DNA from: an uncultured Opitutia bacterium
Lineage (GTDB): Bacteria; Verrucomicrobiota; Verrucomicrobiia; Opitutales; Opitutaceae
Assembly: GCA_903881475.1 (NCBI GenBank)
Contig: CAIRTK010000064.1
Span: 62,001 to 126,000 of the forward strand
Direction: 5' to 3'
DNA: 64,000 bases
The notes beneath the pieces were generated by a model, which worked only from the letters and a program-made list of their open reading frames with translations, was not told the origin of the DNA and did no database searches. Positions 14,722 through 52,089 of the stretch are shown one piece after another (positions within the stretch are counted from its first letter, which is position 1; every line of letters begins with the position of its first letter). The position numbers were made by a program, and so were the translations under genes.

Positions 14722-15762
14722 TCAGGCGATCAGCTGCTTGGATCCGGCCATGGTCACGAGCGTCGGGGCAATGGTGATACCGACGCGCCCGATGGCCTGC
14801 GGGTTTTCGATCCGCCAGACCAGGTGATCGACAACTTTGCGCACCAAAGTGGGGAGGTTGATGTCGAGCGCAGCCGGCAGATGGTCGAGATTATGGTAGA
14901 TGACCGGATTATAATTTCCCAGCACGGCCTCAAAATCACGTTCCGATTTCAGACCGGCCTGTCGCATCGAGCGAAAGAATGAGCCGCAGAAATGATCCAC
15001 GGGCATGTAGAGTCCGGTCGGGCGGGGCGTGGCCTGCATCATCCGGCGGACCAGGGTGTCGCTCTCCTCGTGCACCGGCGCGATTTCGAGATAACTGGTG
15101 CCCGGCCGGGTTTTGCCAAAAATGTGGTGCACAGTCAGGCCGAGTTCCTTGGCCCGTTCGGAGAATGATTTGGCGCGCCAGGCCACCGCCGAGTAGGCGG
15201 GATCCGTCGAAATCACGCCGAGGGTCTTGTGGCCGCGGCTGTGCAGGAAATCCGCGGCGAGCCGGCCGTTGAGGTCGTTGTCCGGTTCGACATAATCGCC
15301 GGTAAAACCGACAGTCCGCCGGGTCATGAACCAGACATAGGGCAGGGAAACCAGCTTCTGCATGCAGGCGGCCGAGGGTTCCATGCCTTGGATGATGACG
15401 CCGTCCACCTGGCGCTCGGCCAGCACGCGGGGCAGATCCTCGGGCGTGTCCGAAAACAGCACGCTCAGTTCGATGCGCTGCCGTTCGTTGGACGGCTGAA
15501 TGTGCAGCAATTGGTCCTGAAACCAGTTGTGGGTGGAGGTTTTCTTCGCGCCCACGAACCAGACGGCGATCTTCTTGGGCGTGGCGAGGCGCGACTTCGG
15601 CCCGCGGCGCCGGTGCAGGGGTGTGGGCACATAGTTGACCGCGGTCATCACCGCCTGTACGCGGGCTAGCCGGTCGGGTGCAACCAGATGCGGCTGATTG
15701 ATGACGCGGGAGACAGTGGCAGGGGAGACCTTGGCCCGTTGGGCGATATCGGCAATGAGCAT
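14722..15762 (-). CDS. LacI family transcriptional regulator
   Basis: MLIADIAQRAKVSPATVSRVINQPHLVAPDRLARVQAVMTAVNYVPT helix-turn-helix plus periplasmic-binding-like domain. Confidence 0.95.
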   Translation of the reverse strand: MLIADIAQRAKVSPATVSRVINQPHLVAPDRLARVQAVMTAVNYVPTPLHRRRGPKSRLATPKKIAVWFVGAKKTSTHNWFQDQLLHIQPSNERQRIELSVLFSDTPEDLPRVLAERQVDGVIIQGMEPSAACMQKLVSLPYVWFMTRRTVGFTGDYVEPDNDLNGRLAADFLHSRGHKTLGVISTDPAYSAVAWRAKSFSERAKELGLTVHHIFGKTRPGTSYLEIAPVHEESDTLVRRMMQATPRPTGLYMPVDHFCGSFFRSMRQAGLKSERDFEAVLGNYNPVIYHNLDHLPAALDINLPTLVRKVVDHLVWRIENPQAIGRVGITIAPTLVTMAGSKQLIA

Positions 15763-16822: not shown

Positions 16823-18769
16823 ATGGTCTCCCAACTGGCAAACCGCCGTGGCTTTTTGGTTTTGATGCTGGTCATGGCGCAGGGAGCGGCGGGGTGGGCG
16901 CAGAGCCAGCAAAGCGCTTGCGCAGTATCGCTTACGGATGCGGACATCACCCGCCGGTTCTTGGAGCGGAGGGAGGCGGTCCTCGCGCAGGCGATCGGCA
17001 CGATCGACCCGGCGGACCCAACCAAGGGAGGCTATCTCGAGGTGGCGGCGGCCCTGCAAAAAGGCGTGAAGCGCGAGGCGGCGCTCGCGCGCCTCGCGGT
17101 GATCAACCGGCCAACGCCCAACGCCAACATGTTCTGGGCGTACCCCATGGCCGCGGTGATGACCGCGGGGCGCGCGGGCCTGGATGACAAGGCCTGGGCG
17201 CGCATCCAAGAGTTGTGGCGGACCTATTGGCCGAACCGCGGCGACACGGAGAACCACTGGGCAATGTCGTACGCCAGTCTCTACCTTGCAGCACAGACCT
17301 GCCCGGAGGCGGGCCCCGGGCAGTGGTTCAACGGCCGCTCCTCCGCGGAGAACCTCGCCGAGGCGAAGGCTTACCTTGAACATTGGATGTGGGTGACCAC
17401 CAATTTCGGCCAGGGCGAGTACGACTCGCCGAGCTACATCCAGGAGTACCTCATCCCGATGGGCCTGCTTGCGGGCTGGGCCAAGGATGAAGTGCTCCGC
17501 CAGAAAGCCCGCATGATGCTCGACTACCTCATCTATGACTATGCGGTCGAGAGCGTGGAGGGAAATTACGGCGGTGCGCATAGCCGCGTGTATCCGAGGC
17601 AGATCGTCGCGCCCGGCCAGGCCCCCATTGCGGCCATCAGCTGGCTGCTGTTCGGTTACCACCAGCAGGCGGGCGACCCGGCGAACACAATCCTGGCGAT
17701 GAGCGGCTATGTTCCGCCGCCCATTCTCGAGCGCATTGCGCGTGACGAGGTCCACCGGCCCTACGTGGAGCGGGAGCTCAAGCGCACCCGCTGGCGCATG
17801 CGCAACGCCGGGCCCCACTCCTTCGTCATCGGCGACAAGCGCACGGTCCCGGTTTATAAATACAGCTACGTCGACCGCGACTTCGTGCTTGGCTCGACCC
17901 AGGGTGGGCTGCTCCAGCCCATCCAGCAGCAGACCTGGAGCCTCGACTGGCGCTCGGACAAACCGGTGGCCACGGCCGCCAACACCTTCTTCGGCACGCA
18001 GCCCTATTCGTCGCCGTACGAGGGCACGATGTTCTTCGGCGGTGACTGGGACACGGTCTCCGACCTGATCGCGCGCTCCAAGGCGGACTACGATTCCGAG
18101 GACAAGCTGCCCGGTGGCTCGCCCTACGAGCAGGTCTTCCAGCAGGGCGCGGCACTCATCGCGCTCTATGACATGCCGGCGGGCAACCGCTTCAGTCACG
18201 TGACAACGTTCTTCTCGCGCGACCTTGAGCACACCACCGAGGACCCTTCCGGCTGGATCTTCGCGCAGGGCGGCCCGGTCTATATTGCGTACCGGCCGTT
18301 TGCCGCCGGCGTCTGGAAGCCCAACGACTGGACCCACTTGCTCGGCAACGACGCCAAGGGCTTCATCGGCTCCGGCTTTGCGCAGTGGGGCCTCGGCAGC
18401 CGGTGCTACGTGAGCGACGCCCTGCGCAACGGCTATGTCGTGCAGGTGGCCCCGGTCCGCGCCTATGCGTCGTTCGCGGCCTTCCAGGCGGCGGTCCGGT
18501 CGCTGCCCCTCACGTTCTCGACCCAGGCCGCGCCCGAGGCCACCTTCACCACGCTTGATGGCAGCGTGCTCCACGTGCGCTACGACGAGCCGCCCACGGT
18601 CAACGGCGCGACGCCGGATTACGACCACTGGCCGCTCTTCGACAGCCCGTTTGCCCATGAGGAACGGGGTAGCCAGCGCCTGGAAATCCGCCAGGGCGGA
18701 GAGCGTTACCTCCTCGATTTCACCAAGCCGCTCATCCAGGAAACCGCCGTGTCCTGTCCCCAGCCATGA
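16823..18769 (+). CDS. uncharacterised secreted protein, paralogue T1 of the RGDTENHW/GQGEY family (predicted alpha/alpha-toroid)
   Basis: Signal peptide (FLVLMLVMAQGAAGWAQ); NRGDTENHWAMSYASLYLAAQ, NFGQGEYDSPSYIQEYLIPM, YKYSYVDRDFVLGSTQGGLLQPIQQQTWSLDW shared with 25539..27449 and 28520..30406. Confidence 0.85.
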   Translation: MVSQLANRRGFLVLMLVMAQGAAGWAQSQQSACAVSLTDADITRRFLERREAVLAQAIGTIDPADPTKGGYLEVAAALQKGVKREAALARLAVINRPTPNANMFWAYPMAAVMTAGRAGLDDKAWARIQELWRTYWPNRGDTENHWAMSYASLYLAAQTCPEAGPGQWFNGRSSAENLAEAKAYLEHWMWVTTNFGQGEYDSPSYIQEYLIPMGLLAGWAKDEVLRQKARMMLDYLIYDYAVESVEGNYGGAHSRVYPRQIVAPGQAPIAAISWLLFGYHQQAGDPANTILAMSGYVPPPILERIARDEVHRPYVERELKRTRWRMRNAGPHSFVIGDKRTVPVYKYSYVDRDFVLGSTQGGLLQPIQQQTWSLDWRSDKPVATAANTFFGTQPYSSPYEGTMFFGGDWDTVSDLIARSKADYDSEDKLPGGSPYEQVFQQGAALIALYDMPAGNRFSHVTTFFSRDLEHTTEDPSGWIFAQGGPVYIAYRPFAAGVWKPNDWTHLLGNDAKGFIGSGFAQWGLGSRCYVSDALRNGYVVQVAPVRAYASFAAFQAAVRSLPLTFSTQAAPEATFTTLDGSVLHVRYDEPPTVNGATPDYDHWPLFDSPFAHEERGSQRLEIRQGGERYLLDFTKPLIQETAVSCPQP

Positions 18770-19776
18770 AATCCCCGGCCGCCTTCTTCCTTGCCTTGCT
18801 GCTCGCCGGCGTGTCGAGCCTGGCGGCCGACACCCCACCGGCCCACCGCCTATACGCGGCGGTTGCGATGACCAAGGCGCAGAAAAACAGCGCGACGCCG
18901 ACGGACTCCGGGCTCTACCAGCGCGATGAGCACGGCGAGTGGTCCTACTTCGGCCCGCGTGTGCTGGGCATCGCCAGCCTGGCCGTCCAGCCCGGCAGCC
19001 ATGGCCAGGTGATCCTGGTCGCGATCGCCGACGGCGTGCTCCGCAGCATGGACGGCGGCCGGACCTGGCGGAAGACCACCGGCTGGGACGTGGCCGATGT
19101 GCGCTCGTTCGCCTTTGATCCCGCTGACGCGAACCGGGTGTATGCGTCCACTTGCTGGGGGCCATTGCGCTCCACCGATGGCGGGGCTACGTGGAGCCTC
19201 GCCCAGGCGGGCCTGACCCAGCTCTACTGCCAAGCCGTCGCGGCCGACGCGGAAAAGCCCGGTCGCGTGCTGCTCGGAACCGAGGACGGCATCTACCGCT
19301 CCACGGACGCGGCGAAGACCTGGGCCCGCACGGAATTTCCGCCCGTCTCGGTGCTGCGCATCGCCCAAAGCCCAGCCGACCCGCACCTCCTGCTCGCCGG
19401 GACGCAGGGCCGCGGGGCGTGGCTGTCCCGCGACAGCGGCGCGACCTGGACCGCGGTCGATCCGGCCACCGGCACATCGAACCTTTATGCCGCGGCCCTC
19501 GATCCGCGTGACGTACACCGGCTGGCAGTGGGCGGTTGGGGCGTGGGCGTGCGGGTCTCGGCCGATGGCGGCGCGACCTGGACCGACCGCACGGCGGGCC
19601 TGCCGGTGAAGAACATCTTCGTGCTGGCCTTCGACCCGGACGTGCCGGGCCGCCTGCTGGCGTCGACCTTCGAGGAAGGCACGTTCTATACGGACGATTT
19701 CGGCCGGACCTGGCATTCCGCCGGCCTGGACGGCGCCTATGTTTTCGACCTGATCTTTGTCCCGACCGCGCGCTGA
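18766..19776 (+). CDS. secreted Asp-box (BNR/sortilin-like) beta-propeller protein P1
   Basis: Signal peptide; Asp-boxes SMDGGRTW, STDGGATW, STDAAKTW, SRDSGATW, SADGGATW, TDDFGRTW; overlaps T1 by ATGA. Confidence 0.9.
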   Translation: MKSPAAFFLALLLAGVSSLAADTPPAHRLYAAVAMTKAQKNSATPTDSGLYQRDEHGEWSYFGPRVLGIASLAVQPGSHGQVILVAIADGVLRSMDGGRTWRKTTGWDVADVRSFAFDPADANRVYASTCWGPLRSTDGGATWSLAQAGLTQLYCQAVAADAEKPGRVLLGTEDGIYRSTDAAKTWARTEFPPVSVLRIAQSPADPHLLLAGTQGRGAWLSRDSGATWTAVDPATGTSNLYAAALDPRDVHRLAVGGWGVGVRVSADGGATWTDRTAGLPVKNIFVLAFDPDVPGRLLASTFEEGTFYTDDFGRTWHSAGLDGAYVFDLIFVPTAR

Positions 19777-19799
19777 GCCACGCCTCCCTCCTTTTCCCC

Positions 19800-22241
19800 G
19801 TGCCTGCAAACCCCTTCGTCAACTCCGCCTCGTGGATTTGGTCCGCCGAGGGATCCCATTCCGCGCCGCCGCCCGAGGCGTCCACGCCCTCGCACTATCA
19901 GGTGCGCTATTTCCGTCGCACCTTTGACGTCGCCGATCCCGCGGCCGCGGTACTGACCGTGCATGTGTCGGGCGACAGCCGCTATCTGTTTTACTGCAAT
20001 GGCACGCTGATCGGCCGCGGCCCGGCGAAGGGGGATGTGAATCATCATTTCTACGAGACCTTCGACCTCGCGCCGCACCTGCGCCGCGGCCGCAACGTCC
20101 TCGCGGCCCTGGTGCTCGACATGTCCCGGGTCGCGCACCGGCCCGCGCTGCTCGGCCCGCCGTGCTCCGTGATGACGTACACGGGCGGGTTTGTCCTCGA
20201 GGGCGCGCTCCAGACCTGGTCGGGTGAAACGCTCACGGACCTGCGCACGGATGCGACCTGGAAGGTCGCCGTCGACAAGGCGCACCGGTTCCAGAACGAG
20301 CACACCACGTTCGAGGGCTACCTGGGTTATTTTGAGCACCGCGTCTCGAGCCTGATCCCGGCGGGCTGGAATACGCCCGGGTTTGACGACGCGGCGTGGC
20401 CGGCGGCGCATGTGCTGTTCAAGGCCGAGCTGCTGGAGAACCGCCGCGATCCCGCCAGCCCCTACGGCCTGCTGCCGCGTATGGTGCCGATGCTCGAGGA
20501 AGGGGCGCCGGAGGTGTTCGAGGATGCGTTTCTCGCTGGCGGCGCACCCGTCTCCGCGCCCTGGAAGGCATTGCTGGAGCAGGGCATCGCACTGACCCTG
20601 CCGGCCCATGAAACGGTCACCCTGGTGCTCGACGTGACGGAACTGACCACGGCCTTTCCCCATCTCGAGGTCACGGGCGGCGCGGGCAGCGTGATCCGCC
20701 TGACCTACGCCGAGGCGTTGCGCCTGCCCTGGAGCACGCCGGGGGCGAAGCTGCTGGGCAAGCAGCAGCCGCTCGCGAACCTGGCCTCGCATTTTGCCGA
20801 CGAAAGCAGCGGCTGGACCTTTGACCGCCGCGGCCGGGTCACCGGCTGGGGCGACATCTGGGAGCCGTCGGGCGGAGCGGAGATATTCGAACCGCTGCAC
20901 TGGCGCGCGTTCCGCTACATCGGCCTCGAGCTCAAGGTCGGCGCCGCGCCGCTCACCCTGCGCGCGGTGAAGCACCGGTTCACGGCCTATCCCTACCGCA
21001 TCACCGCCACGTTCAGCTCCTCGGACCCGTCGCTCGACCGGATCTGGCAGGTCGGCCTCCACACGATGCGGATGTGCTCGCACGAGACCTTCGAGGACTG
21101 CCCGCACTATGAGCAGATGCAGTACGCGGGGGACACGATGATCACCTCGAAGCTCGGCATGCTCACCACGGGCGATTACCGGCTGAGCCGCCAGGCGCTG
21201 TATCATTTCGACTGGTCGCGGTTGTCCGACGGCCTCACGCAGGCGCGGTTTCCCTCGCGGCTCGTGCAGATCATCCCGGCCTGGAGCATCCACTGGATCA
21301 CCAACATCAAGGACTACTTCTATTGCACGGGCGACCACGCGACCGTGCGGGACCTGCTGCCCGGGATCCGCGCCGTGCTTGACTGGTACCGCCGCCACAC
21401 GGACGACGACGGCCTGCCGGCCCGGCTGCCGTTCTGGAACATCACCGACTGGTGCCCGTGGTGGCCGCGCGGTGTGGTGCCGGGCGCCGATACCGGCCCG
21501 ACCTGCATCGACTCCGCGCAGTACATCAACGCCCTCGACGAGGCCGCACTGCTCCTCCGTCATTTTGACGGCGTGGCCGAGGCCGAGGCACTTGCGCGCG
21601 AGGCCCAGGACCTGCGCGGCAAGGCGCATGCGCGCTTCTGGTCCGAGACGGAGGGACTTTATTTCGACCGGCCCGGCGGGCCGGAAGTCAGCCAGTACGG
21701 CAACGCCTGGGCGATCGTGGCCGGCCTCGCCGGCGAACGGGAGCGGGCGATCATCCTGCGCCGTTTCCCAAACGACGAGAAACTCGCGCCGGGCTCGTTC
21801 TTCTGGCTGCACACCGGCTTCGCCGCGCTGGCGAAGTGCGGCCGCGCGGACGACATGCCGAAACATCTCGGCCCGTGGCACGAGTCCATCGGCTACGGCC
21901 TCTCGACCTTCGTGGAGGAAAACAGCTACTGGCGCTCGCTGTGCCATGCCTGGAGCGCGCATCCCGTGCTCGAGTTCCAGCAGCGCATCCTCGGGGTCAC
22001 CGCGACGGAGCCCGGCTTTGCCAAGGTCCGGGTCGCGCCGAACCGCTGCGGGCTCACCCACGCCGCCGGCAGCGTGTGCACCCCGCACGGCCTCATCGAG
22101 GTCGCCTGGCGCGTGGCGGACGGAAAATTCCGGCTGAAGGTCGCCGCCCCCGCGGGCGTCGAAGTGACCGTTGCGGCGCCGGGCGGCGCCGTCCGCACCG
22201 TGGCCGGCGGGAAATTCGAGGAGGCGTTCGCCCTCGCATGA
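19800..22241 (+). CDS. alpha-L-rhamnosidase-like glycoside hydrolase (GH78-like)
   Basis: GTG start at 19800 gives MPANPFVNSASWIWSAEG; ETFEDCPHYEQMQYAGDTMI catalytic-region motif and alpha/alpha barrel C-terminal. Confidence 0.88.
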   Translation: MPANPFVNSASWIWSAEGSHSAPPPEASTPSHYQVRYFRRTFDVADPAAAVLTVHVSGDSRYLFYCNGTLIGRGPAKGDVNHHFYETFDLAPHLRRGRNVLAALVLDMSRVAHRPALLGPPCSVMTYTGGFVLEGALQTWSGETLTDLRTDATWKVAVDKAHRFQNEHTTFEGYLGYFEHRVSSLIPAGWNTPGFDDAAWPAAHVLFKAELLENRRDPASPYGLLPRMVPMLEEGAPEVFEDAFLAGGAPVSAPWKALLEQGIALTLPAHETVTLVLDVTELTTAFPHLEVTGGAGSVIRLTYAEALRLPWSTPGAKLLGKQQPLANLASHFADESSGWTFDRRGRVTGWGDIWEPSGGAEIFEPLHWRAFRYIGLELKVGAAPLTLRAVKHRFTAYPYRITATFSSSDPSLDRIWQVGLHTMRMCSHETFEDCPHYEQMQYAGDTMITSKLGMLTTGDYRLSRQALYHFDWSRLSDGLTQARFPSRLVQIIPAWSIHWITNIKDYFYCTGDHATVRDLLPGIRAVLDWYRRHTDDDGLPARLPFWNITDWCPWWPRGVVPGADTGPTCIDSAQYINALDEAALLLRHFDGVAEAEALAREAQDLRGKAHARFWSETEGLYFDRPGGPEVSQYGNAWAIVAGLAGERERAIILRRFPNDEKLAPGSFFWLHTGFAALAKCGRADDMPKHLGPWHESIGYGLSTFVEENSYWRSLCHAWSAHPVLEFQQRILGVTATEPGFAKVRVAPNRCGLTHAAGSVCTPHGLIEVAWRVADGKFRLKVAAPAGVEVTVAAPGGAVRTVAGGKFEEAFALA

Positions 22242-23098
22242 GCACCCTCCGGCTCCAGCACGAGACCGGCCGCGCGGTGACCGTCCTGGCGGACGAGCGC
22301 GTCCTTTGCCGCTATGTGTATGTCTCGGCGGAGGAGCGGAAGGAATCGCCCCGCCCGTATTTCCATCCGGTCAACTCGCTCGCGGGCGACACGCTCACCA
22401 ACTTCCGCCCGAACGACCACCCGTGGCACCACGGGCTCTCGTTCACCCTGACCAATGTCTCCGGCCATAATTTCTGGGGCGGACCCACGTGCCGCCGCGA
22501 GGATGGCTACAAATGGCGCGACGACCACGGGGAGCAGCGCCATGTGGCGTGGACGAAGCTCGCGGCCGAAGGCGCGACTGCCGTGCTGGCGCACACGCTG
22601 GAGTGGCGCACGCCGCAGGAAGTGGTCTTTCACGAGGAGCGTTCGGTGGAGATCGGGCTGGAGGCGGGACGGAAGGCCTGGTCGCTCCGCTGGCGCACCC
22701 GGCTCCGCAATGTCACCGGCCGCGGGCTGGCGCTGGGCAATCCCCATTCGTCGGGCGGCCTGCCCGGCTCGCACTACACCGGGCTGCAATTCCGCGGCGC
22801 CCGGGCCCTGCTCGACGACCATCTTGATCCGACCATCAAAATCACGGCCGACGGCGGACTCGAGGGCGACAAGGCGGTGCATGGCGCGCCGGCCGGCTGG
22901 ATGGAGTGGCATGCGCAATCCGACACGACCCTGAACCGCACGGTCATCCGCTTTGCCAACCAGGGCGGTCCGCTGCACTGGTTTGTCCGCCGCAATTATC
23001 CGCTCGCGGCCTTTCCCGTGCAGTTCGACCAGGACCTCGGCCTGGCCGCGGGGGCCGAACTGGCCGTTGACCACACCTTGACCTTCACCTCGCCATGA
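22238..23098 (+). CDS. DUF6807 / PmoA-like family protein
   Basis: RPYFHPVNSLAGDTLTNFRPNDHPWHHGLSFTLTNVSGHNFWGG motif; ATGA overlap with the upstream gene. Confidence 0.82.
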   Translation: MSTLRLQHETGRAVTVLADERVLCRYVYVSAEERKESPRPYFHPVNSLAGDTLTNFRPNDHPWHHGLSFTLTNVSGHNFWGGPTCRREDGYKWRDDHGEQRHVAWTKLAAEGATAVLAHTLEWRTPQEVVFHEERSVEIGLEAGRKAWSLRWRTRLRNVTGRGLALGNPHSSGGLPGSHYTGLQFRGARALLDDHLDPTIKITADGGLEGDKAVHGAPAGWMEWHAQSDTTLNRTVIRFANQGGPLHWFVRRNYPLAAFPVQFDQDLGLAAGAELAVDHTLTFTSP

Positions 23099-24387
23099 CC
23101 ATCAACCGGAAGGAATTTCTCCGCCAGGTGGGCCTCGGCGCCTTCGGCGCGCTCGCCGCCCCCGCGCTGCTTGCCCGCGAAACCGCCATCGCCCCGCCCG
23201 TGGCCCTGCCGGCCTTCGATGGGCAAAAACCCGAGGATTTCTGGCGCGCGGTGCGGGCGCAGTACGCCTCGCTCGATCCCACGCTGGTCTATTTCAACAC
23301 CGGCGGCCTCGGCCCGGCCTCCACTCCCGTGCTCAACGCCTTCACGCGGGTGATGCTGGAGCGGCAGAAGGAATCCGACACCGGCCATGAGCAGTTTGCC
23401 CCCGCCCGCAAGGTCGCAGCGCGCTTCTTCCAGGCGCAGCCCGAGGAAATCTGCCTCACCCGCAACACCACGGAGGGCACCTCGATCGTGGCGTCCGGCC
23501 TGAGGCTGGCAGCGGGCGACGAGGTGATCATTGATTCCCATGCGCACCCGGGCGGCTCGATCCCCTGGTACAACCAGCACAAGATCCGGGGCGTCGTCGT
23601 GAAGGTGTTCGAACCCGATCCTGCGGGCCCCGACGGCAACCTGGAGCGCATCCGCGCCCTGATCACGGCGCGCACGAAGGTGATCCAGATCAGCCATGTG
23701 ACTTCGCCCACGGGCATCATCCTGCCGGCGGCCGCGATCGGCCGGCTGGCGCACGAGCACGGCGCGTGGTTTCACATCGACGGGGCGCAGTCCGGCGGGA
23801 TGTTCCCGTTCGCGGTGCGCGACCTCGGGTGCGACTCCTATGCCACGAGCGGACACAAGTGGCTGGGCGGGCCCCACGAGACGGGCATTTTTTTCATCCG
23901 CCGTGAGCGCCTGGATGACGTCGCGCCCTCCGGGATCGGCGCCTACTCCGGTTCGCTCCCGCACCTGCCGGGCGAGCTCACCTACACGCCGTCGGCCGTC
24001 CGCTACGAATACGGCACGCGGAATGCCGCAAGCGTGGTTGCGCTGGCGGAGGCGCTGAAGTTCCAGGAAGCGATCGGGCGCGAGCGCATTGCCGACCGCG
24101 GCCGCACGCTGGCGGCGCACCTGCGCCGGGGCCTGGAGAAGATTCCCGGCGTGGAAATCCTGACGCCGGCCGAGGCCGGCCTCTCGGGCTCGATCCTCAC
24201 GTTTCACACCCCGAAGCTCGGCTATGAAAAAATGTTCGGCAAACTGTGGAAGGATTACCGCCTGCGCTGCCGGCCGGTGGACGAGCAGGGCCTGGATGCC
24301 GTGCGCGTGTCGCTCCACGTCTTCAATTTTCCCGACGAGTGCGACCACCTGGTCGGCGCCGTCGGCGAAATCCTGAAAAAGACCTGA
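23095..24387 (+). CDS. class V aminotransferase / cysteine desulfurase-like PLP enzyme with N-terminal export-like leader
   Basis: Leader NRKEFLRQVGLGAFGALAAPALLA; HIDGAQSGG and YATSGHKWLGGPHETGIFF (PLP lysine). Confidence 0.9.
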   Translation: MTINRKEFLRQVGLGAFGALAAPALLARETAIAPPVALPAFDGQKPEDFWRAVRAQYASLDPTLVYFNTGGLGPASTPVLNAFTRVMLERQKESDTGHEQFAPARKVAARFFQAQPEEICLTRNTTEGTSIVASGLRLAAGDEVIIDSHAHPGGSIPWYNQHKIRGVVVKVFEPDPAGPDGNLERIRALITARTKVIQISHVTSPTGIILPAAAIGRLAHEHGAWFHIDGAQSGGMFPFAVRDLGCDSYATSGHKWLGGPHETGIFFIRRERLDDVAPSGIGAYSGSLPHLPGELTYTPSAVRYEYGTRNAASVVALAEALKFQEAIGRERIADRGRTLAAHLRRGLEKIPGVEILTPAEAGLSGSILTFHTPKLGYEKMFGKLWKDYRLRCRPVDEQGLDAVRVSLHVFNFPDECDHLVGAVGEILKKT

Positions 24388-24495
24388 GCATGCGAGCCCG
24401 TTCCGTTTGCCCGGCGGCGAGCCCGCCCTGCCCCGGCGAACGGGCCGGTCCGCGCCGCGCGGATTGATTCAACTTTGCCATCCAACCTCACTCGC

Positions 24496-25521
24496 ATGCC
24501 TACCAGGAATATCACCCTCGCCCTGCTCGGCTGGTGCGCGGCTTTGGCCGTGTCACTGGCGGCGGCCGCCCCGCTGCACGATCTCTATATTTGCGCCTCC
24601 AACAGCCGCGGCACCCGCGTGATCGGCTTCAAGGACACCAGCCTCAACGGGGTTTACCGCCGCGAAGCCGATGGCAGTTTCACGCACCTCGGGCTGAACC
24701 ATCCGATGACACTGTCCGTGACCTTCGACCCGCGCGATGCGCGGCTGTTTTATGTGGCGAGCCTGAGCGGCATCCTGCGCACGCCGGACGGCGGCCAGAC
24801 GTGGCGCGTCGCCACGGATTGGGATGTGACGGAGCCCAAGTCGGTGGTCGTCGATCCCAATGATCCCGACACCGTGTACGCGGGCGTGCCGGACGGTTTC
24901 ATCGTTTCCCGTGACCGGGGTCTCACCTGGGTGCGCGCGGAACGCGGCCTGCCGGAACGCGGCAAGTACACGCAGGTCGTCCAGGTCGACCGGACGCACG
25001 CGGGACGCGTGCTGATCGGCTGCGAGACCGGCATTTATCTCACCGAAGACGGGGCGAAATCCTGGCGGCACGTGTTCACCTGCGCCGCGACCGTCGAGGA
25101 TCTCCAGCAGTCGCCCCATGACCCTTTGTTCTGGCTGGCGGTGACGCAGGCGGACGGCGCGCTCCAATCGCGCGATGGCGGGTTTTCCTGGACGAAGCTC
25201 GCCGGCGTGCCGGCGGAACATGCCCTCTACAACGTGGCCTTTGACGCGCTCAACCCGCAACGCCTCGCCCTCGCGAGCTGGACCTACGGGCTGCTGACGA
25301 GCGAGGACGGCGGACGCACCTGGGTGGAGCGCAACGCCGGGCTGCCGGTGCCGCACCGGGTCTGGCGCACGGCGATCGACCCGGACACGGGCCGGCTCTA
25401 TGCGGCGGTCCTCGATCAGGCGCTCTTCGTCTCCGATGATTTCGGCCGGACCTGGAAAGCCGGCGGCATGGAAGGGTCCCGGATCACGGGTTTCACCTTC
25501 GTGCCCAGGGCCGCCCGCTAA
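24496..25521 (+). CDS. secreted Asp-box beta-propeller protein P2
   Basis: Signal peptide; Asp-boxes TPDGGQTW, SRDRGLTW, TEDGAKSW, SRDGGFSW, SEDGGRTW, SDDFGRTW; homologous to P1 and P3. ATG at 24496 preferred to the track's TTG at 24475. Confidence 0.9.
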   Translation: MPTRNITLALLGWCAALAVSLAAAAPLHDLYICASNSRGTRVIGFKDTSLNGVYRREADGSFTHLGLNHPMTLSVTFDPRDARLFYVASLSGILRTPDGGQTWRVATDWDVTEPKSVVVDPNDPDTVYAGVPDGFIVSRDRGLTWVRAERGLPERGKYTQVVQVDRTHAGRVLIGCETGIYLTEDGAKSWRHVFTCAATVEDLQQSPHDPLFWLAVTQADGALQSRDGGFSWTKLAGVPAEHALYNVAFDALNPQRLALASWTYGLLTSEDGGRTWVERNAGLPVPHRVWRTAIDPDTGRLYAAVLDQALFVSDDFGRTWKAGGMEGSRITGFTFVPRAAR

Positions 25522-25538
25522 CCCGAACCATTTCCGAC

Positions 25539-27449
25539 ATGAAAAAATTCATTTCCCTGCTCGCGCTGGCGGCCCTGCTGGCCGGCCCGACGTTCGCGCA
25601 GCCGGCCTATAGCGGCCCCATGCCCGTGCCACCGTCGGACACGCGGACCGATGCCCTGCGGCGGGCCTACCTGGACCGCGTGAAGGAGGTCCTCGTCTGG
25701 TACTCGGCGACGGCGAAGCCCGACAAACCCGAGACCATCGGCACCGGCCAGATCGTGGCCAAGCTCGCCCTGCACCAGGATGCCGGCCTGGTGTCCCAGC
25801 GCATCATCGAGCTGATGAAGCAGCCGCAGACCGGGGACATGTTCTGGATGTTTCCGTGGGCCGCGATCTCCTTCCTGGGCCGCGATCAGCTCTCCGCCGA
25901 GGCGAAGGCCGCGATCCGCGACGCCTGGCGCACCTATTTTCCCATGCGCGGGGACACCGAGAATCACTGGGCGATGTATTACTCCTCGCTGTTCCTGATG
26001 TCGGAACTTTATCCGGATGACCCGGCGGGCAGCTGGTTTACGGGCAAGAGCTCGGCGGAAAACCGGGCGGAAGCAAAGGGCTACCTGATCCACTGGATGG
26101 ATCTCGCCACGACGATCGGGCAGGGCGAATACAACCCGACCCACTACATCGGCGAATACGCGATCCCGATGCTATACCTCGCGACCTGGTCGAAGGATCC
26201 CGAGATGAAGATCCGCGGTCACATGATGCTCGACTGGCTGATGGCCGAACTGGCGGACAACACGCTGAACGGCGTGCTGCGCGGTCCTAACGCCCGCACC
26301 ACCGAGGAGTCGGTGCTCGAGCGCTGGAACGGGCTGTCCTCCTTCTTCAGCTGGACGATGTTCGGCAACACCCCGCCGCCCGCCGCCTACGGCGGGTTTG
26401 GCATCTTCTTCGCCGGGGCCGCGGAAAACTACCAGCTGCCCGAGGTGATCTACCACATCGCGGTGGACCGCAGCCAGGATTACATTCAGCGCGACCTCAA
26501 GCGCACCCGCCGCCGCTGGCGCTACAGCGACCAGTTCATGCCGCCGGTTTATAAGACCAGTTACATGCGCCGGGACTACGCGGTGGGTTCCTACCAGGGC
26601 GGCCAGTCCGATCCCATCCAGACGCATGTATGGGACGTGACGTGGGCCGTGCCGGATCCGCGCGGGGTGCATAACACCCTGTTTTCGATGCATCCCTATG
26701 CCTCGACCGAGGTGCTGCAGATGTACTTCACGGAGCAGCCCGACGGCTTGATCGACTCGCTCTCGGGCCAGGGGAAACCGTCCTTCGGCGTGCCCGACAA
26801 GATCCTCGGCGCCTCGCCTTATGAGCGCGTTTTCCAGGATCTCGACACGGTGGTCGCGCTCTACGACATCCCGCCCGGCACGTCGTATCCCCGGATCAAC
26901 GGCTTTTTCTCGAAGGACCTGACCCAGATCACCGAGGACAAGTCCGGCTGGATCTTCGTGCAGGGCGGCCACACCTACCTGGCGTACCGGCCGCTCGCGC
27001 CGTTCCATTGGGAGCACCTGCTGGGCTACCGCCAGCTGCCCTCGGCGCATGGCTACAAATGGGAGCGCGTCGACAAGGGCGAGCAGGGCGACAAGCTGCT
27101 CGTTAGTGAACACCTCAAGAACGGCACGATCGTGCAGGCGGCGAGCGCGGATGAGTTCAAGAGCTTCGCGGCGTTCCAGGCCGCGATCAACGCCCTGCCG
27201 CTGGAGTTCCGGCTCGAACCGGTGCCGGTGGTAAAACTCACCACGCTGCGCGGCAAGCAGGTCACGTTCACCTACGGCCAGGCGCCGGTCGTGGACGGCG
27301 CGCCGCTTGATTACACGAAATGGAAGCTGTTCGAGGGCCTTTACCTCAATGCCGAGAAAGGTTCGCGCCGGCTGACGATCACGCACGGCCAGCTGAAGCG
27401 TGTGCTCGATTTCAACACGCTCACCATCACCGACTCCGTCACGCCCTGA
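25539..27449 (+). CDS. uncharacterised secreted protein, paralogue T2 (predicted alpha/alpha-toroid)
   Basis: Signal peptide; MRGDTENHWAMYYSSLFLMSELYP, IGQGEYNPTHYIGEYAIPM, YKTSYMRRDYAVGSYQGGQSDPIQTHVWDVTW. Confidence 0.88.
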   Translation: MKKFISLLALAALLAGPTFAQPAYSGPMPVPPSDTRTDALRRAYLDRVKEVLVWYSATAKPDKPETIGTGQIVAKLALHQDAGLVSQRIIELMKQPQTGDMFWMFPWAAISFLGRDQLSAEAKAAIRDAWRTYFPMRGDTENHWAMYYSSLFLMSELYPDDPAGSWFTGKSSAENRAEAKGYLIHWMDLATTIGQGEYNPTHYIGEYAIPMLYLATWSKDPEMKIRGHMMLDWLMAELADNTLNGVLRGPNARTTEESVLERWNGLSSFFSWTMFGNTPPPAAYGGFGIFFAGAAENYQLPEVIYHIAVDRSQDYIQRDLKRTRRRWRYSDQFMPPVYKTSYMRRDYAVGSYQGGQSDPIQTHVWDVTWAVPDPRGVHNTLFSMHPYASTEVLQMYFTEQPDGLIDSLSGQGKPSFGVPDKILGASPYERVFQDLDTVVALYDIPPGTSYPRINGFFSKDLTQITEDKSGWIFVQGGHTYLAYRPLAPFHWEHLLGYRQLPSAHGYKWERVDKGEQGDKLLVSEHLKNGTIVQAASADEFKSFAAFQAAINALPLEFRLEPVPVVKLTTLRGKQVTFTYGQAPVVDGAPLDYTKWKLFEGLYLNAEKGSRRLTITHGQLKRVLDFNTLTITDSVTP

Positions 27450-27455
27450 TCCCTT

Positions 27456-28502
27456 ATGACCCGAACGAACCATTTTTCGCCCGGCTGGGCCGCGGGACTC
27501 CGGCTCTTGGCGCTCCTGGCCCTGCCGGCCGCCGGCCGGCCGCTCGCCGCCGCGGCCCCGGCTGATTTCTATCTCTGTGCCGCGCTGAACAAGGGCTACG
27601 TGACCGGCTCGAAGATCACCACGCTCAGCGGCCTGTTCAGGCGGGACGGGACCGGAGCCTGGCAGCACATCGGCTACAACGACCTCAGCATTGCGGCGGC
27701 CGCGTTTGACCCGCGCGATCCCAAGGTGATTTACACCGCCGCGCTGAACGGCTGCTGGCGCAGCCTCGATGGCGGCAAGACGTGGCGCCAGACCAACGGC
27801 TGGGACATCACCGAGGGCCGCGACGTGGCCGTGGATCCCCATTCCCCCGATCACGTTTACCTGGCCCTGCCCGACGGCGTCGCGGTTTCCGCCGACCGGG
27901 CGCAGACGTGGGTGCGCCGGGAAAACGGCCTGCCGGACCGCGGCAAGTACACGCAGACGATCAAGGTCGACCGCGCGCACGCCGGCCGCGTGCTCGCCGG
28001 CTGCGAGTCTGGAATCTACCTGACGGAGAACGGGGCGAAGTCCTGGCGGCGCGTGCTGCCGACCGCCGCGACAGTGGACGACATCCAGCAGGCGTGGAAC
28101 GATCCCAGGCAATGGGCGGCCGTGACGCAGAGCGACGGTGCCTGGGCCTCGATCGACGGCGGCGTGACGTGGAAGCGGTTCCCCGGCGTGCCCGCGGATC
28201 ACGCCCTCTACAACCTCACGTTCGATCCCACGAACCAGCGTCGCCTCGCCATTGCCAGCTGGCATTACGGCGTGCTCACGACCGAGGACAGCGGCGCGAC
28301 GTGGACCTCCCGCAACGCCGGCCTGCCGGAACCGCACCGCGTGGCGCGCGTGGGCGTCGACCCGGACACCGGCCGGCTGTACGCGAGTGTCGTCAACGAT
28401 TCGCTCTACACGTCCGATGATTTCGGCCGCACCTGGCGGCGCAGCGCCCTCGAGGGCTCGGTCATCAATAATTTCATCACCGTGCCCGGCCCGGCGAAGT
28501 AA
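27456..28502 (+). CDS. secreted Asp-box beta-propeller protein P3
   Basis: Asp-boxes SLDGGKTW, SADRAQTW, TENGAKSW, SIDGGVTW, TEDSGATW, SDDFGRTW; close to P2 throughout. Confidence 0.9.
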   Translation: MTRTNHFSPGWAAGLRLLALLALPAAGRPLAAAAPADFYLCAALNKGYVTGSKITTLSGLFRRDGTGAWQHIGYNDLSIAAAAFDPRDPKVIYTAALNGCWRSLDGGKTWRQTNGWDITEGRDVAVDPHSPDHVYLALPDGVAVSADRAQTWVRRENGLPDRGKYTQTIKVDRAHAGRVLAGCESGIYLTENGAKSWRRVLPTAATVDDIQQAWNDPRQWAAVTQSDGAWASIDGGVTWKRFPGVPADHALYNLTFDPTNQRRLAIASWHYGVLTTEDSGATWTSRNAGLPEPHRVARVGVDPDTGRLYASVVNDSLYTSDDFGRTWRRSALEGSVINNFITVPGPAK

Positions 28503-28519
28503 CCGGGCCCTTCTCCGCC

Positions 28520-30406
28520 ATGAAAACCAAATTTTTCCCCGCCCTCGTCCTCAGCATTGCGGCGGCCGTTTCCATGCGGGCGCAACCGTCCTTTGCCGGA
28601 CCGATGCCGTCGCCCGCGGTCGAGCCGGACGCCGATGTGCGCCGGGAAGCCTACCACCAGCGGATCAATGAGGTCCTCCACTGGTACAGCGCGCAGGCCA
28701 AACCCGGCGTGCCCTACGGCCGCGAGGTCATCCTCGCCAAGCTGGCCCTGCGCGAGGACCGCGCGGAGGTCTCCCGCAGCGTGATCACCTACATGAAGGA
28801 TCCCGGGACAGGCCCGTTCTGGATGTTTCCCGTCGTGGCCATGTCGCTGCTGGGCCAGGACCAGCTGACGCCCGCGGCCAAGCAGGCGCTCCGCGACATG
28901 TGGCGCACGACCTACCAGGTGCGCGGCGACACCGAGAACCACTGGGCGATGTACTACATCTCACTCTACCTGATCTCGGAGCTTTACCCGAACGAGCCGG
29001 CCGAGACCTGGTACACGGGCAAGAGCTCCGCGGAGAACCTCGCCGAGGCGCGGGAATACCTGATCCATTGGATGGACCTGGCGACGACGGTCGGGCAGGG
29101 CGAGTTCAACCCGACCGGCTACATTGCCGAGTACGCCGTGCCGCTCAGCTATTTATCCACGTGGGCCAAGGATCCGGCGATGCGCCTGCGCGGCCACATG
29201 ATGCTCGACCTGCTGTTCTCCGAACTCGCCGAAAACTCGCTCAACGGGATGCTGCGTGGGCCCAACGCCCGCACCGATGAAGGCAACGTCATCGAGCGCT
29301 GGAATGCCATCACGTCCTATTTCAACTGGCTCCTCTTCGGCAACACGGTGCCGCCGGCGGGCTACGGCGGCTTCGGCATGTTTTTCGCCCTTGCCGCGAA
29401 AAACTACGACGTGCCGGAGGTGATGTACCGCATCGCCGTGGACCGGGATCGCGACTTCGTCGCCCGGGACCTCAAGCGCACGCGGCGCCGGTGGCGCCTG
29501 AGCGACCAGCTCATGCCGCCGATCTACAAGACCAGCTACATGCGCAAGGACTACGCGGCCGGTTCCTACCAGGGCGGACTGGCGGATCCCATCCAGACGC
29601 ATGTGTGGGATGTGACGTGGGCCGTGCCGGATCCGCGCGGTGTGCACAACACGATGTTCTCGCTGCACCCTTACTCGTCGAACGACTCGATGCAGATGTA
29701 CTTTTCGACCTTTCCGGAGCCGATGATCCCCAACCTCGCGGTCGAGGGAAAGCCGAGCTACGATACGCCCACCAAGGTCGTCGGGAGCTCGCCGTATGAG
29801 CGCGTGTTCCAGGATCGCGACACGGTGATCGCGCTCTATGACATCCCGCCGGGCACGCGCTTTCCGCAGATCAACGGGTTCTTCTCGAAGGACCTCGTCA
29901 ATCTCACTGAGGACAAGTCCGGCTGGATTTTCGCCCAAGGCGGGAACACCTACCTCGCCTACCGGCCGCTCGCCGCGTACAAGTGGATCCCGTATCTGCA
30001 CCGGAACGGCGGCTGGGCCAAGGAGGAGAAAAACCTCGGCGGCCAGCTGCTCGTCAGCGAATTCCTCAAAAACGGCACGATCGTGCAGGCGGCGAGCGCG
30101 GATGAGTTCAGGAGCTTCGCGGCCTTCCAGGCCGCGATCAACTCGCTGCCGCTCGAGTTCAAGCTCGAGCCCGTGCCTGTCGTGAAAATGACCACGCTCC
30201 GCGGCACCCGGGTGGTGTTCACCTACGGCCAGGCGCCGCTGGTCAATGGCGCCCGGCTGGATTACTCGAAGTGGAAACTCTTCGAGAGTCCCTATCTCAA
30301 CGCCGAGAAGGGCTCGCGCCGGATCACGATCTCCTACGGCCGAATGCAACGCGTGCTGGACTTCAGCGTGCCGTCGATCACCGAAAGCGCCACGCCCACG
30401 CCCTGA
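28520..30406 (+). CDS. uncharacterised secreted protein, paralogue T3 (predicted alpha/alpha-toroid)
   Basis: VRGDTENHWAMYYISLYLISELYP, VGQGEFNPTGYIAEYAVPL, YKTSYMRKDYAAGSYQGGLADPIQTHVWDVTW; close to T2 along its whole length. Confidence 0.88.
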   Translation: MKTKFFPALVLSIAAAVSMRAQPSFAGPMPSPAVEPDADVRREAYHQRINEVLHWYSAQAKPGVPYGREVILAKLALREDRAEVSRSVITYMKDPGTGPFWMFPVVAMSLLGQDQLTPAAKQALRDMWRTTYQVRGDTENHWAMYYISLYLISELYPNEPAETWYTGKSSAENLAEAREYLIHWMDLATTVGQGEFNPTGYIAEYAVPLSYLSTWAKDPAMRLRGHMMLDLLFSELAENSLNGMLRGPNARTDEGNVIERWNAITSYFNWLLFGNTVPPAGYGGFGMFFALAAKNYDVPEVMYRIAVDRDRDFVARDLKRTRRRWRLSDQLMPPIYKTSYMRKDYAAGSYQGGLADPIQTHVWDVTWAVPDPRGVHNTMFSLHPYSSNDSMQMYFSTFPEPMIPNLAVEGKPSYDTPTKVVGSSPYERVFQDRDTVIALYDIPPGTRFPQINGFFSKDLVNLTEDKSGWIFAQGGNTYLAYRPLAAYKWIPYLHRNGGWAKEEKNLGGQLLVSEFLKNGTIVQAASADEFRSFAAFQAAINSLPLEFKLEPVPVVKMTTLRGTRVVFTYGQAPLVNGARLDYSKWKLFESPYLNAEKGSRRITISYGRMQRVLDFSVPSITESATPTP

Positions 30407-30494: not shown

Positions 30495-31994
30495 ATGCCC
30501 GCCCACCTCACGGTTCACGCCGATGCCCCCGGCCCGGTCATTGACCGGCATATTTTCGGCCACTTCGCCGAGCATCTGGGCCGCTGCATTTACGACGGCC
30601 TCTGGGTTGGGGAGAATTCCCCGGTGCCCAATGTCCGCGGCTGGCGGAGCGACCTTGTGGCGGCCCTGAAGCAGATCCGTGTGCCCAACCTGCGCTGGCC
30701 GGGCGGCTGCTTTGCCGACGACTACCACTGGCGGGATGGCATCGGTCCGCGGGAAAAGCGCCCGCGCCGCGTCAACGCCCACTGGGGCGGCGTGGTCGAG
30801 AGCAACGCCGTGGGCACCCATGAGTTCCTCGACCTGTGCGAGCAGCTCGGCTGCGAACCGTACCTCGCCGGCAACGTCGGCAGCGGCTCCCCGCGCGAGC
30901 TGCGCGACTGGGTGGAGTACTGCAACGCCCCCGCCGGCACGCTCGCCGACGAACGCGCGGCCAACGGCCGGCGCGAACCATGGAAGGTCCGCCTCTGGGG
31001 CGTGGGCAACGAGACCTGGGGCTGCGGGGGCAACATGACCGCTGAGTACTATGCCGGCGAGTACCGCCGCTTCGCGACCTACGTGCGCGACTTTCCCGGT
31101 GCACCGCTCTACCGGGTGGGCAGCGGCGCGCGCAACGACGACTTCCACTGGACCGAGGTCATGATGCGCGAGGCCTTCAAGGGCCCGCTGGGCGGCCCGA
31201 TGCTGCAGGGGCTGTCCGTCCATTATTACACGGTGCTGGGGGACTGGCCGCCGAGCCACCCGGCCACCGGGTTCGATCACCACGCGTGGAAGTCCGTCAT
31301 GGCGGAGGGCTGGAAGATGGAGGCCATCGTTCGCGGCCATCGCGCGGTGATGGACCGGTATGATGCGAAGGGCCTCACCGCCTTGGTCGTCGACGAATGG
31401 GGCGCTTGGTACGCCGTCGAGCCCGGCACGAACCCGGGGTTTCTCTACCAGCAGCAGACGATCCGCGACGCGGTCCTCGCCGCGCTCACGCTCAACATCT
31501 TCATCAACCATTGCGAGCGCGTGCGCATCGCCAACCTCGCGCAGATCGTCAACGTGCTCCAGGCCGTGGCGCTTACCGAGGAGGGCGGCGGCCGGCTGGT
31601 GCTTACGCCGACCTGGGACGTGCTGGCCCTCTATGCCGCGCACCAAGGCGCGAACCGCCTGGGCGTGGACAACGATACCCCTTCCGGCACGCACGGGGGA
31701 CTCGACTATCCCGGCGTGTCGGCGACGGCCTCGCTCGCGACCGACGGCGCCGTGAACGTCACGCTCTGCAACACGGACCCCGCGGCCCCGGCCGAAATCA
31801 CGCTGGCGCTCAAGGGCCGTCTGCCGGTGCTGGCCGGGGCCCGCGTGCTCAGCACGCCGGTGCTGACGACGTGCAACACCTTCGACCAGCCGCGGGCGGT
31901 CACAACCCGGCCGTTTGACGGCGTGCGCGTCCACGGCGGCCAGGTGCAATTCTCCCTGCCGCCCGGCTCCGTGGCGGCCCTGCATTTCTCATGA
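30495..31994 (+). CDS. alpha-L-arabinofuranosidase (GH51-like)
   Basis: FGHFAEHLGRCIYDGLWVGE, LRWPGGCFADDYHWRDGIGPREKRP, WGVGNETWGCGGNM. Confidence 0.94.
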   Translation: MPAHLTVHADAPGPVIDRHIFGHFAEHLGRCIYDGLWVGENSPVPNVRGWRSDLVAALKQIRVPNLRWPGGCFADDYHWRDGIGPREKRPRRVNAHWGGVVESNAVGTHEFLDLCEQLGCEPYLAGNVGSGSPRELRDWVEYCNAPAGTLADERAANGRREPWKVRLWGVGNETWGCGGNMTAEYYAGEYRRFATYVRDFPGAPLYRVGSGARNDDFHWTEVMMREAFKGPLGGPMLQGLSVHYYTVLGDWPPSHPATGFDHHAWKSVMAEGWKMEAIVRGHRAVMDRYDAKGLTALVVDEWGAWYAVEPGTNPGFLYQQQTIRDAVLAALTLNIFINHCERVRIANLAQIVNVLQAVALTEEGGGRLVLTPTWDVLALYAAHQGANRLGVDNDTPSGTHGGLDYPGVSATASLATDGAVNVTLCNTDPAAPAEITLALKGRLPVLAGARVLSTPVLTTCNTFDQPRAVTTRPFDGVRVHGGQVQFSLPPGSVAALHFS

Positions 31995-33916
31995 ATTACG
32001 TTTCCGCCCTGCCGCTCAACCAGGTTCGTTTCACCCGCGGTTTCCTCGCCGAGCGCGCCCGCCTCGTGCGCGACGTGGTCATCCCGTACCAGTGGGAGGC
32101 CCTGAACGACCGCGTGGCCGGGGCGGAGCCCAGCGGCTGCGTGCATAATTTCCAGGTCGCCGCCGGCGAGAAGCCGGGAAAATTCTACGGGCTCTTCTGG
32201 CAGGACTCGGATCTTGCCAAGTGGATCGAGGCCGCCGCCTACCGGCTTGCCACGCATCCCGATGCCGCGCTGGAGGCCGAGCTGGACCGGCTGATCGCGA
32301 CGCTCGCGAAGGCGCAGGGCGCCGACGGCTACCTCAATACCTACTTCCAGCTCGTCGAGCCGCAGAACCGCTGGGCGAATCTGCGGGACTGCCATGAGCT
32401 CTACGTCGCCGGCCACATGATCGAGGCGGGCGTCGCCCATTTCCAAGCCACCGGCAAGCGCACGCTGCTCGCGGTCGTTAGCCGGCTGGCCGACCTGATC
32501 GACCGCACGTTCGGCCTCGGGCCCGGGCAGATCCCCGGCTATTGCGGCCACGAGGAGATCGAGCTCGCCCTCGTCAAGCTCGCCCGCGCCACCGGGGAGG
32601 CGCGTTATGCGAAGCTCGCCGCGTATTTCATCGATCAGCGCGGCCAGTCGCCCAACTACCTGATGGAGGAGACCCGGCGCCGGGCCGATCCGCTGCCTTG
32701 GCACATGTATTTCGACGGCCTTGCGACCCTGCAGGCCGCCCGGCCGGTGCGCGAGCTGACCGAGCCCGTCGGCCATGCGGTGCGGCAGATGTACCTGCTC
32801 GCGGCGATGGCGGACCTGGCCCGCGAGCCGGGTGATGCATCGCTGCTGCGCTCGTGCCATACGCTGTGGAACAGCCTGGTCAGCCGCCATCTCTACGTCA
32901 CGGGTGGCGTGGGCTCGGAACCTTATGGGGAGAAATTCACCGAGCCGTTCGACCTGCCGCCGGACCGCGCCTACTCCGAGACCTGCGCGGCGATCGGCGT
33001 GATCTTTTTCGCGCGGCGCATGCTGGAGCTGGAGCTGCGCGGGGAGTTTGCCGACGTGATGGAGCGTGCGCTCTACAACAACGTGATCAGCGGAATGTCG
33101 CTCGACGGGACGAAATTTTTCTACGTCAACCCGCTCGAGCTCATCCCGGCGGTGGCGAAGCGCCGTTACGAATGCCACCTGGTCAAGACCCAGCGCGTCG
33201 GCTGGTTCGGCTGCGCCTGCTGCCCGCCGAATGTCGCCCGGCTTTTTGCGTCACTCGCCGACTATGCGGCTTCGCTGCGGCCGGACGGCCTGGCCCTGCA
33301 TCTCTATGCCGAGTCCGACCTGCGCTTCACGGTCGCCGGGGGCGAGGTGAAGCTGGCCATCCGCACGGACTACCCGTGGACGGAGGAAGTGGCCCTCGAG
33401 GTCCGTCCGGCTGCGCCGGTGGAGTTTACCCTGCAGCTGCGCATCCCGGGTTGGTGCCGTGGAGCCACGCTGGCGATCAATGGCCAAGCGCAGCCGGTTG
33501 TGCCGGTGAACGGCTACGCGGTCCTGCGCCGGGTCTGGCGTCCGGGCGACCAGGTGATGCTCACGCTGCCCATGCCCATCGAGCGCGTGCGGGCCGATCC
33601 GCGCGTGTCGACGGCAGCCGGCAAGGTGGCGCTGCAGCGCGGCCCGGTGGTTTATTGCCTCGAGGAGCCGGACAATGGCGCCGACCTCGCGGCGCTGTCG
33701 CTGCCGCGCACCGCCGCGCTGACCGCCCGGCACGATCCGGCTTTGCTGGGCGGCTGCGTCGTGATCGAAGGCCAGGGCGTGCGCGTCCAACCCGGTCGGT
33801 CGCTCTACACGGTCGCTCCGCCGCAAACCGAAACCCGGCCCCTGTGGGCGATTCCCTACGGCCTCTGGGCCAACCGCGGCGAAGGCGAAATGCGTGTCTG
33901 GATCCAGGAATCATGA
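31991..33916 (+). CDS. beta-L-arabinofuranosidase-like (GH127/DUF1680)
   Basis: NFQVAAGEKPGKFYGLFWQDSDLAKWIEAAAY, GADGYLNTYF, GCACCPPNVARLFASL cysteine motif; ATGA overlap with GH51 gene. Confidence 0.93.
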   Translation: MNYVSALPLNQVRFTRGFLAERARLVRDVVIPYQWEALNDRVAGAEPSGCVHNFQVAAGEKPGKFYGLFWQDSDLAKWIEAAAYRLATHPDAALEAELDRLIATLAKAQGADGYLNTYFQLVEPQNRWANLRDCHELYVAGHMIEAGVAHFQATGKRTLLAVVSRLADLIDRTFGLGPGQIPGYCGHEEIELALVKLARATGEARYAKLAAYFIDQRGQSPNYLMEETRRRADPLPWHMYFDGLATLQAARPVRELTEPVGHAVRQMYLLAAMADLAREPGDASLLRSCHTLWNSLVSRHLYVTGGVGSEPYGEKFTEPFDLPPDRAYSETCAAIGVIFFARRMLELELRGEFADVMERALYNNVISGMSLDGTKFFYVNPLELIPAVAKRRYECHLVKTQRVGWFGCACCPPNVARLFASLADYAASLRPDGLALHLYAESDLRFTVAGGEVKLAIRTDYPWTEEVALEVRPAAPVEFTLQLRIPGWCRGATLAINGQAQPVVPVNGYAVLRRVWRPGDQVMLTLPMPIERVRADPRVSTAAGKVALQRGPVVYCLEEPDNGADLAALSLPRTAALTARHDPALLGGCVVIEGQGVRVQPGRSLYTVAPPQTETRPLWAIPYGLWANRGEGEMRVWIQES

Positions 33917-36280: not shown

Positions 36281-36372
36281 TTAACCCCGAAGGGCACGAA
36301 GATCACGAGGGGTTTCGATCATCGGAAGTGTTTTAAGTCCGGTCTTCGTGGGCTTCGTGCCCTTCGGGTTAA
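36281..36372. repeat. intergenic inverted repeat (CGAAGGGCACGAAG type)
   Basis: TTAACCCCGAAGGGCACGAAGATCACGA ... TCTTCGTGGGCTTCGTGCCCTTCGGGTTAA. Confidence 0.8.
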
Positions 36373-36401
36373 ATTCTGATCGAGAATCGATCTGCAGAGG
36401 C

Positions 36402-49850: not shown

Positions 49851-50081
49851 GGAATGGGTGACAACGCGAAAGATGCTTTCGCCGCAAAACACAAGCGCGT
49901 CCCGTGTCAGGGGCGTTTATTTACCAATCACCGGGACCGGCAACCACCGGATCGCACGGGGGCGGACGCTGCGTGCGGGGAAAAGTTGGAGAGGCTTCCC
50001 GGGCGGCCGGGCGGATCCGCGAATTTTCACGCCACTTCGCCTTGCCATCGGATGCGGTGAGGGCCAACCCAGCAAACGACC

Positions 50082-51098: not shown

Positions 51099-51104
51099 TG
51101 CGAA

Positions 51105-51171
51105 AAAAATCCGAAGTTCGAAACCCGAAATCCGAAAGCTGAGGTCAGAAACCCCCAACCCCAAATCCGAA
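51105..51171. repeat. intergenic CGAAATCCGAA-type element
   Basis: ATCCGAAGTTCGAAACCCGAAATCCGAAAGCTGAG...CCAAATCCGAATG. Confidence 0.5.
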
Positions 51172-51995: not shown

Positions 51996-52023
51996 ACTCC
52001 GCCCGCTTTTGATTCTGTCGTTC

Positions 52024-52089
52024 TGAGCGAAGCGAAGAATCCAGTGCGATCCCGCCAACCGGCTCCAAGTTGATTCTTCGCTTCGCTCA
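52024..52089. repeat. intergenic inverted repeat (TGAGCGAAGCGAAGAATC type)
   Basis: Perfect 18-bp arms TGAGCGAAGCGAAGAATC (52024..52041) / GATTCTTCGCTTCGCTCA (52072..52089). Confidence 0.85.

Follow-up and report, generated by a model that had tools for sequence, protein, structure and literature searches.

We report that two kinds of secreted protein, encoded side by side and in three copies within a 64,000-nucleotide stretch of DNA from an uncultured Opitutia bacterium (the window), probably form a two-part sugar-cutting enzyme that is undescribed in the databases and literature searched. One of them, T, is predicted to combine an alpha-toroid with a beta-sandwich in the manner of polysaccharide lyases; the other, P, is an Asp-box beta-propeller. 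On balance we favour the reading that T-P is a secreted lyase of two subunits, one of them an obligate Asp-box propeller, which cleaves a uronate polysaccharide by beta-elimination.

An open-reading-frame check of the window bore out the positions, lengths, order and strand that the first-pass annotation had given for the six genes, which run T1-P1 ... P2-T2-P3-T3 on the + strand (Table 1), with gaps of 6–17 bases at the P2-T2, T2-P3 and P3-T3 junctions. Sequence identity is 67% between T2 and T3 and 39% between T1 and T2, as compared with 57% between P2 and P3 and 38% between P1 and P2. The motifs that had been described as common to the T proteins are present in T1–T3, except that LKRTR(x)RWR is exact only in T2 and T3 (LKRTRRRWR) and reads LKRTRWRMR in T1; the ENH, GQGEYDSPSY and GAHSR motifs are retained in T1. 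P1–P3 match the Pfam families Sortilin-Vps10 and BNR, in keeping with their earlier description as Asp-box propellers. All six N-termini are hydrophobic and signal-peptide-like, and from sequence T1–T3 and P1–P3 all look secreted. This arrangement is not a product of chance, because it recurs in dozens of other genomes.

Table 1. Genes of the T-P locus, in window coordinates
Feature	Position	Strand	Remarks
TonB-dependent receptor	11498..14518	-	divergent; conserved in 26/74 loci
LacI-type regulator	14722..15762	-	conserved in 38/74 loci
T1	16823..18769	+	648 aa; secreted, toroid + beta-sandwich, lyase-like; subtype with P after it; no Pfam/NCBIfam match
P1	18766..19776	+	secreted Asp-box propeller; overlaps T1 by 4 bases
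GH78 alpha-L-rhamnosidase	19791..22241	+	conserved operon core; no signal peptide; start approximate
DUF6807 protein, function unknown	22238..23098	+	operon core, 59/74 loci, between GH78 and PLP enzyme
Class-V PLP enzyme, secreted (Tat-like)	23095..24387	+	operon core, 64/74 loci
P2	24496..25521	+	secreted Asp-box propeller; alternative TTG start at 24475
T2	25539..27449	+	lyase-like, toroid; putative catalytic residues N142, H143, Y203, R253
P3	27456..28502	+	secreted Asp-box propeller
T3	28520..30406	+	toroid lyase-like protein
GH51-type alpha-L-arabinofuranosidase	30495..31994	+	in a subset of loci
GH127 beta-L-arabinofuranosidase	31991..33916	+	in a subset of loci
M28 peptidase, secreted	34009..35418	+	conserved in 52/74 loci; start approximate
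S51 peptidase	35376..36269	+	28/74 loci
GH43 glycosidase	36348..37319	+	

The proposal of the first-pass annotation that T and P are functional partners is upheld by gene adjacency, genome co-occurrence, co-divergence, gene fusions and the pTM of a fusion model. A P gene adjoins (within 300 bases, same strand) 138 of the 142 full T genes found in the first 106 loci, and always lies on the same strand; among the four T genes without a counted P, one is 15 bases past the cut-off and a further two are truncated where the extracted region or the contig stops. The orientation is equally regular among the 132 pairs on which co-divergence was assessed: P follows T1-type genes in 18/18 cases and precedes T2/T3-type genes in 111/114. 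Across 150 Opitutaceae genomes, P is present in 70 of the 71 that carry T and in none of the 79 that do not, and the sole T-positive genome without P (G395) carries only a distant T. Moreover, within the T2/T3 type, distances between T proteins correlate with those between the neighbouring P proteins (r 0.84); when partners were swapped within loci, the mean r was 0.66 and 0/1000 swaps reached 0.84. Finally, four genomes encode T and P in one polypeptide, with all motifs kept and no evident signal peptide. The model of one such natural fusion has a pTM of 0.89, with a disordered linker (residues 632–656, pLDDT <50). By our own estimate, independently placed T and P domains would give a pTM of roughly the larger domain's fraction, that is about 0.65; the higher value therefore predicts a defined T-P interface in the fusion, pTM being the sole basis of this prediction. 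The partnership itself is shown by these computations.

The fusion genes lie at L158:9040-11940, L159:8316-11222, L160:7980-10916 and L161:8310-11225; three have housekeeping or unrelated genes around them, the fourth (L161) lies near PL11 and GH2 genes, and one fusion gene is two genes away from a PL11 lyase. Stops or frame changes interrupt the T copies at L045:5119-7028 and at G352:C13:272581-292419, the latter in a tandem T/P array, which suggests a rapid turnover of T/P paralogues.

Distant relatives of T present a different picture, with no P nearby in the 20 regions inspected (18 from genomes outside the window's family) and no common theme among the genes beside them. Occurrence of T homologues without propeller genes, which had been named as grounds for abandoning the proposal, is hence seen in one part of the family only: T proper is practically always accompanied by P, whereas the wider Verrucomicrobiota superfamily is not. 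Probably, P joined T in a single branch of the superfamily. T is found in about half of the sampled Opitutaceae genomes and its far relatives in many Verrucomicrobiota. A search of plasmids gave only weak, partial relatives, some of them rhizobial: those on NZ_CP049244.1, NZ_CP030761.1 and NZ_CP054603.1 (Rhizobium, Allorhizobium, Pseudosulfitobacter) are about 23–26% identical over 35% of the protein, and are unannotated or hypothetical.

The earlier suggestion that T is an alpha-toroid, lyase-like protein outside the named families is supported. T1–T3 match no family in Pfam or NCBIfam, and neither T2 nor the T family profile gave a significant sequence match to PDB chains. The AlphaFold2 model of T2, for which an alignment of 50 T relatives served as input (pLDDT 93.6, pTM 0.92), consists of about ten helices arranged as a toroid, followed by a beta-sandwich. 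When this model was compared with the PDB by Foldseek, all 21 matches of probability 1.00 were polysaccharide lyases (PL8, PL12, PL15, PL33 and PL35-type), with modest TM-scores (0.32–0.41). The lyase-type fold emerged likewise from profile comparison: by hhalign, the T profile matched 28 heparinase II/III-type proteins at 85% (E 6e-6, score 57) and the distant T relatives alone matched them at 83%, while eight other families from T-P loci, used as controls, gave at most 2.7%, and shuffling or reversing the T profile brought the match down to 0.1% or less, with scores of at most 16 vs 57. Sequence and model are best read as placing T at a distance from, but related to, the polysaccharide lyases of heparinase II/III type (toroid + beta-sandwich). 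Because T does not conserve the His that heparinase-type lyases carry in the beta-sandwich, it falls outside all the PL families tested and, as judged against Pfam, NCBIfam and the PDB, forms a branch of the lyase fold that has no name.

Two residues common to T and these lyases point to the putative active site. N142, Y203 and R253 are invariant in 50/50 T-family proteins, including seven at only ~20% identity. In the hhalign alignment, Asn142, which belongs to the ENH motif, falls on a heparinase II/III-type column that is N in 26/28 proteins, and Tyr203 on a column that is Y in 28/28. They are 61 residues apart in T, and the spacing between Asn neutraliser and Tyr, as computed from a catalytic-residue table (PMC12088678), is 53–63 in PL8, 12, 15, 17, 23, 35 and 39. 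By contrast, whereas a beta-sandwich His is found in 28/28 heparinase-type proteins, a search of T for a universal beta-domain His yielded none, H363 being Gln in 10/43. The beta-domain alignment of T with the heparinases differed between two profile versions, and for this reason we assign no T residue as the replacement for the catalytic His. The conserved acids of T are E141, E197 and E206.

P, at ~340 aa, is a single propeller, whose nearest solved folds are GH74, the BNR protein 3b7f, DAIP and Ycf48, the last being among the nearest solved relatives both by sequence and by fold. P scored 94–120 bits against NCBIfam Ycf48 (below the curated cut-off of 175) and at most 40 bits against NCBIfam F510_1955 glycosylhydrolase (below the curated cut-off of 326), and gave no Pfam match to BNR_4 (PF15892), the PL42 family. 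Its most conserved residues are largely Asp-box positions.

The T and P genes lie, as the first-pass annotation had recognized, within a co-directional sugar-degradation locus, the GH78, DUF6807, PLP enzyme, GH51, GH127, M28, S51 and GH43 genes all being on the + strand. The core order, derived from 74 Opitutae/Verrucomicrobia loci, runs (T1-P1) GH78-DUF6807-PLP enzyme-P-T(-P-T)n-(GH51-GH127)-M28-S51, with TonB, LacI and TIM-barrel genes on the divergent side; the arabinose enzymes are present in only a subset. Such gene content suggests that the glycan contains rhamnose and, in some cases, arabinose as well, and the recurrence of the PLP enzyme, M28 and S51 hints at a substrate carrying amino acids or peptide (a glycoprotein or amidated uronates). 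Unlike T and P, the GH78, GH51, GH127 and GH43 enzymes do not look secreted. Elsewhere in the window, a 1070-aa frame at 55576-58788 (-) matches Hepar_II_III_C (G000:C64:118938-119114), one of nine such matches in the window's genome. The region 47526-52058 (-) holds frames of 788 and 713 aa with no Pfam match, overlapped by + frames of similar length that leave the coding strand ambiguous.

Genome-wide associations, assessed between the 71 T-positive and 79 T-negative Opitutaceae genomes, bear on the substrate. RG-I, which had been put forward earlier, finds no support as a general substrate because PL11 is not associated with T (28/71 T-positive vs 28/79 T-negative genomes), although one fusion lies near PL11. 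GH88/GH105 enzymes, the usual partners of lyases, were rejected as a downstream partner of T, as they show no association (47/71 vs 58/79). Since 24 T-positive genomes have no GH88/GH105, the T product would need another route there, for example exolytic release of a monosaccharide. KduI, which handles unsaturated uronates, is enriched in T-positive genomes (31/71 vs 8/79 when a true KduI is taken to score at least 150 bits; p 4e-6, a statistic that ignores relatedness). The window's genome has one GH88/105 gene, with a weak KduI-family match (80 bits) ~2 kb away, on a contig other than the window's. The KduI enrichment counts in favour of the lyase reading; the unconserved beta-sandwich His, the modest TM-scores, the missing GH88/GH105 association and the weakness of this KduI-family match count against it. 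We infer that the substrate is a uronic-acid polysaccharide with rhamnose, plus arabinose in some genomes.

The catalysis of T and the role of P are what we infer from the sequences and models, and we envisage them as follows. T and P would make up a single secreted enzyme, neither subunit being dispensable, in which T would cleave a polysaccharide containing uronic acid through beta-elimination. The uronate carboxylate would be neutralised by Asn142, assisted by His143 and perhaps by Arg253, and Tyr203 would serve as base/acid. P would dock on T and most likely shape or extend the cleft, or bind substrate. Each of the pairs T1-P1, P2-T2 and P3-T3 would probably address a different linkage or side chain. 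The products would enter through the TonB receptor and be finished inside by GH78, GH51, GH127 and GH43; were the lyase exolytic and monosaccharide-releasing, GH88/105 would be dispensable.

Other readings of T have to be weighed against this one. T could be a glycoside hydrolase built on the lyase fold (e.g. a uronidase), with P still as its partner, as might be suggested by the missing beta-sandwich catalytic His, the conserved acids and the lack of association with GH88/105. However, the confident fold matches are all lyases, the lyase Asn/Tyr pair is invariant, and no alignment with T is seen for GH127 or GH78, two other families of toroid glycosidases, so that we regard a hydrolase as unlikely. 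A non-catalytic role for T-P, as a complex that binds glycans or captures them at the surface, is very improbable: propellers often bind glycans, and the catalysis of T-P is predicted from sequence and model, but invariant lyase-type Asn and Tyr residues in all 50 members would be unexpected without catalysis.

As regards P, the two proteins could each be an enzyme acting independently within one pathway, in which case P itself would be a propeller lyase or hydrolase. Such enzymes exist in PL24, PL25 and PL42/GH145 (PMC8377490), and GH74 xyloglucanases are among the nearest folds. Yet the strict one-to-one co-occurrence, the pair-specific co-divergence, the fusions and the high pTM argue for physical pairing, and P gives no match to BNR_4, is a single propeller where GH74 is double, and has its conservation largely at Asp-box positions; we consider this scenario quite doubtful. 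The kinship with the assembly factor Ycf48, in both sequence and fold, would rather fit a chaperone that helps T to fold or to be exported and stays outside the mature enzyme, but a permanent T-P fusion in four genomes makes a transient role less likely, and we hold a chaperone to be improbable.

There is about an even chance that T-P represents a new polysaccharide-lyase family whose activity depends on forming a heterodimer with an Asp-box propeller, and of which paralogous pairs of different specificity have expanded in Opitutaceae. To our knowledge, no such two-subunit architecture is known among lyases, and the literature searched describes no toroid lyase that is paired with a propeller as its obligate subunit, although such absence is weak evidence. 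An obligate propeller subunit, if true, would amount to a polysaccharide-cleaving enzyme design undescribed in that literature, and the natural fusions and paralogous pairs make the T-P model directly testable.

Comparison with known systems places P and T differently. The PL42/GH145 propellers are of the BNR type, like P, and act on Rha-GlcA, but PL42 FoRham1 is a member of BNR_4 (PF15892), to which P gives no match; GH74 enzymes have two tandem propellers and P only one. DAIP and Ycf48, also near to P in fold, are binding or assembly proteins, and 3b7f is uncharacterised. As for T, the L-Rha-alpha-1,4-GlcA lyase PL27 likewise combines a toroid with a beta-sandwich and acts beside rhamnose, but its beta-sandwich is N-terminal and its (alpha/alpha)6 domain C-terminal (PMC8377490), whereas the toroid comes first in T. 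PL8 (chondroitin AC, hyaluronate and xanthan lyases) resembles T in fold (Foldseek ranks 5–20) and has a similarly spaced Asn/Tyr pair, but T shows no sequence match to it, and the His that PL8 has between Asn and Tyr is without a conserved counterpart there in T. An Asn-His pair like that of T is listed for PL15 exo-heparinase and for PL39 (PMC12088678). The Hepar_II_III-type lyases (PL12, PL15, PL17, PL21, PL33, PL35 and PL39) have the same fold and the same domain order as T, and their Asn and Tyr align with its own; T, which has no Pfam or PDB sequence match to them, differs in that the beta-sandwich catalytic His is not conserved and in that it would have an obligate propeller partner.
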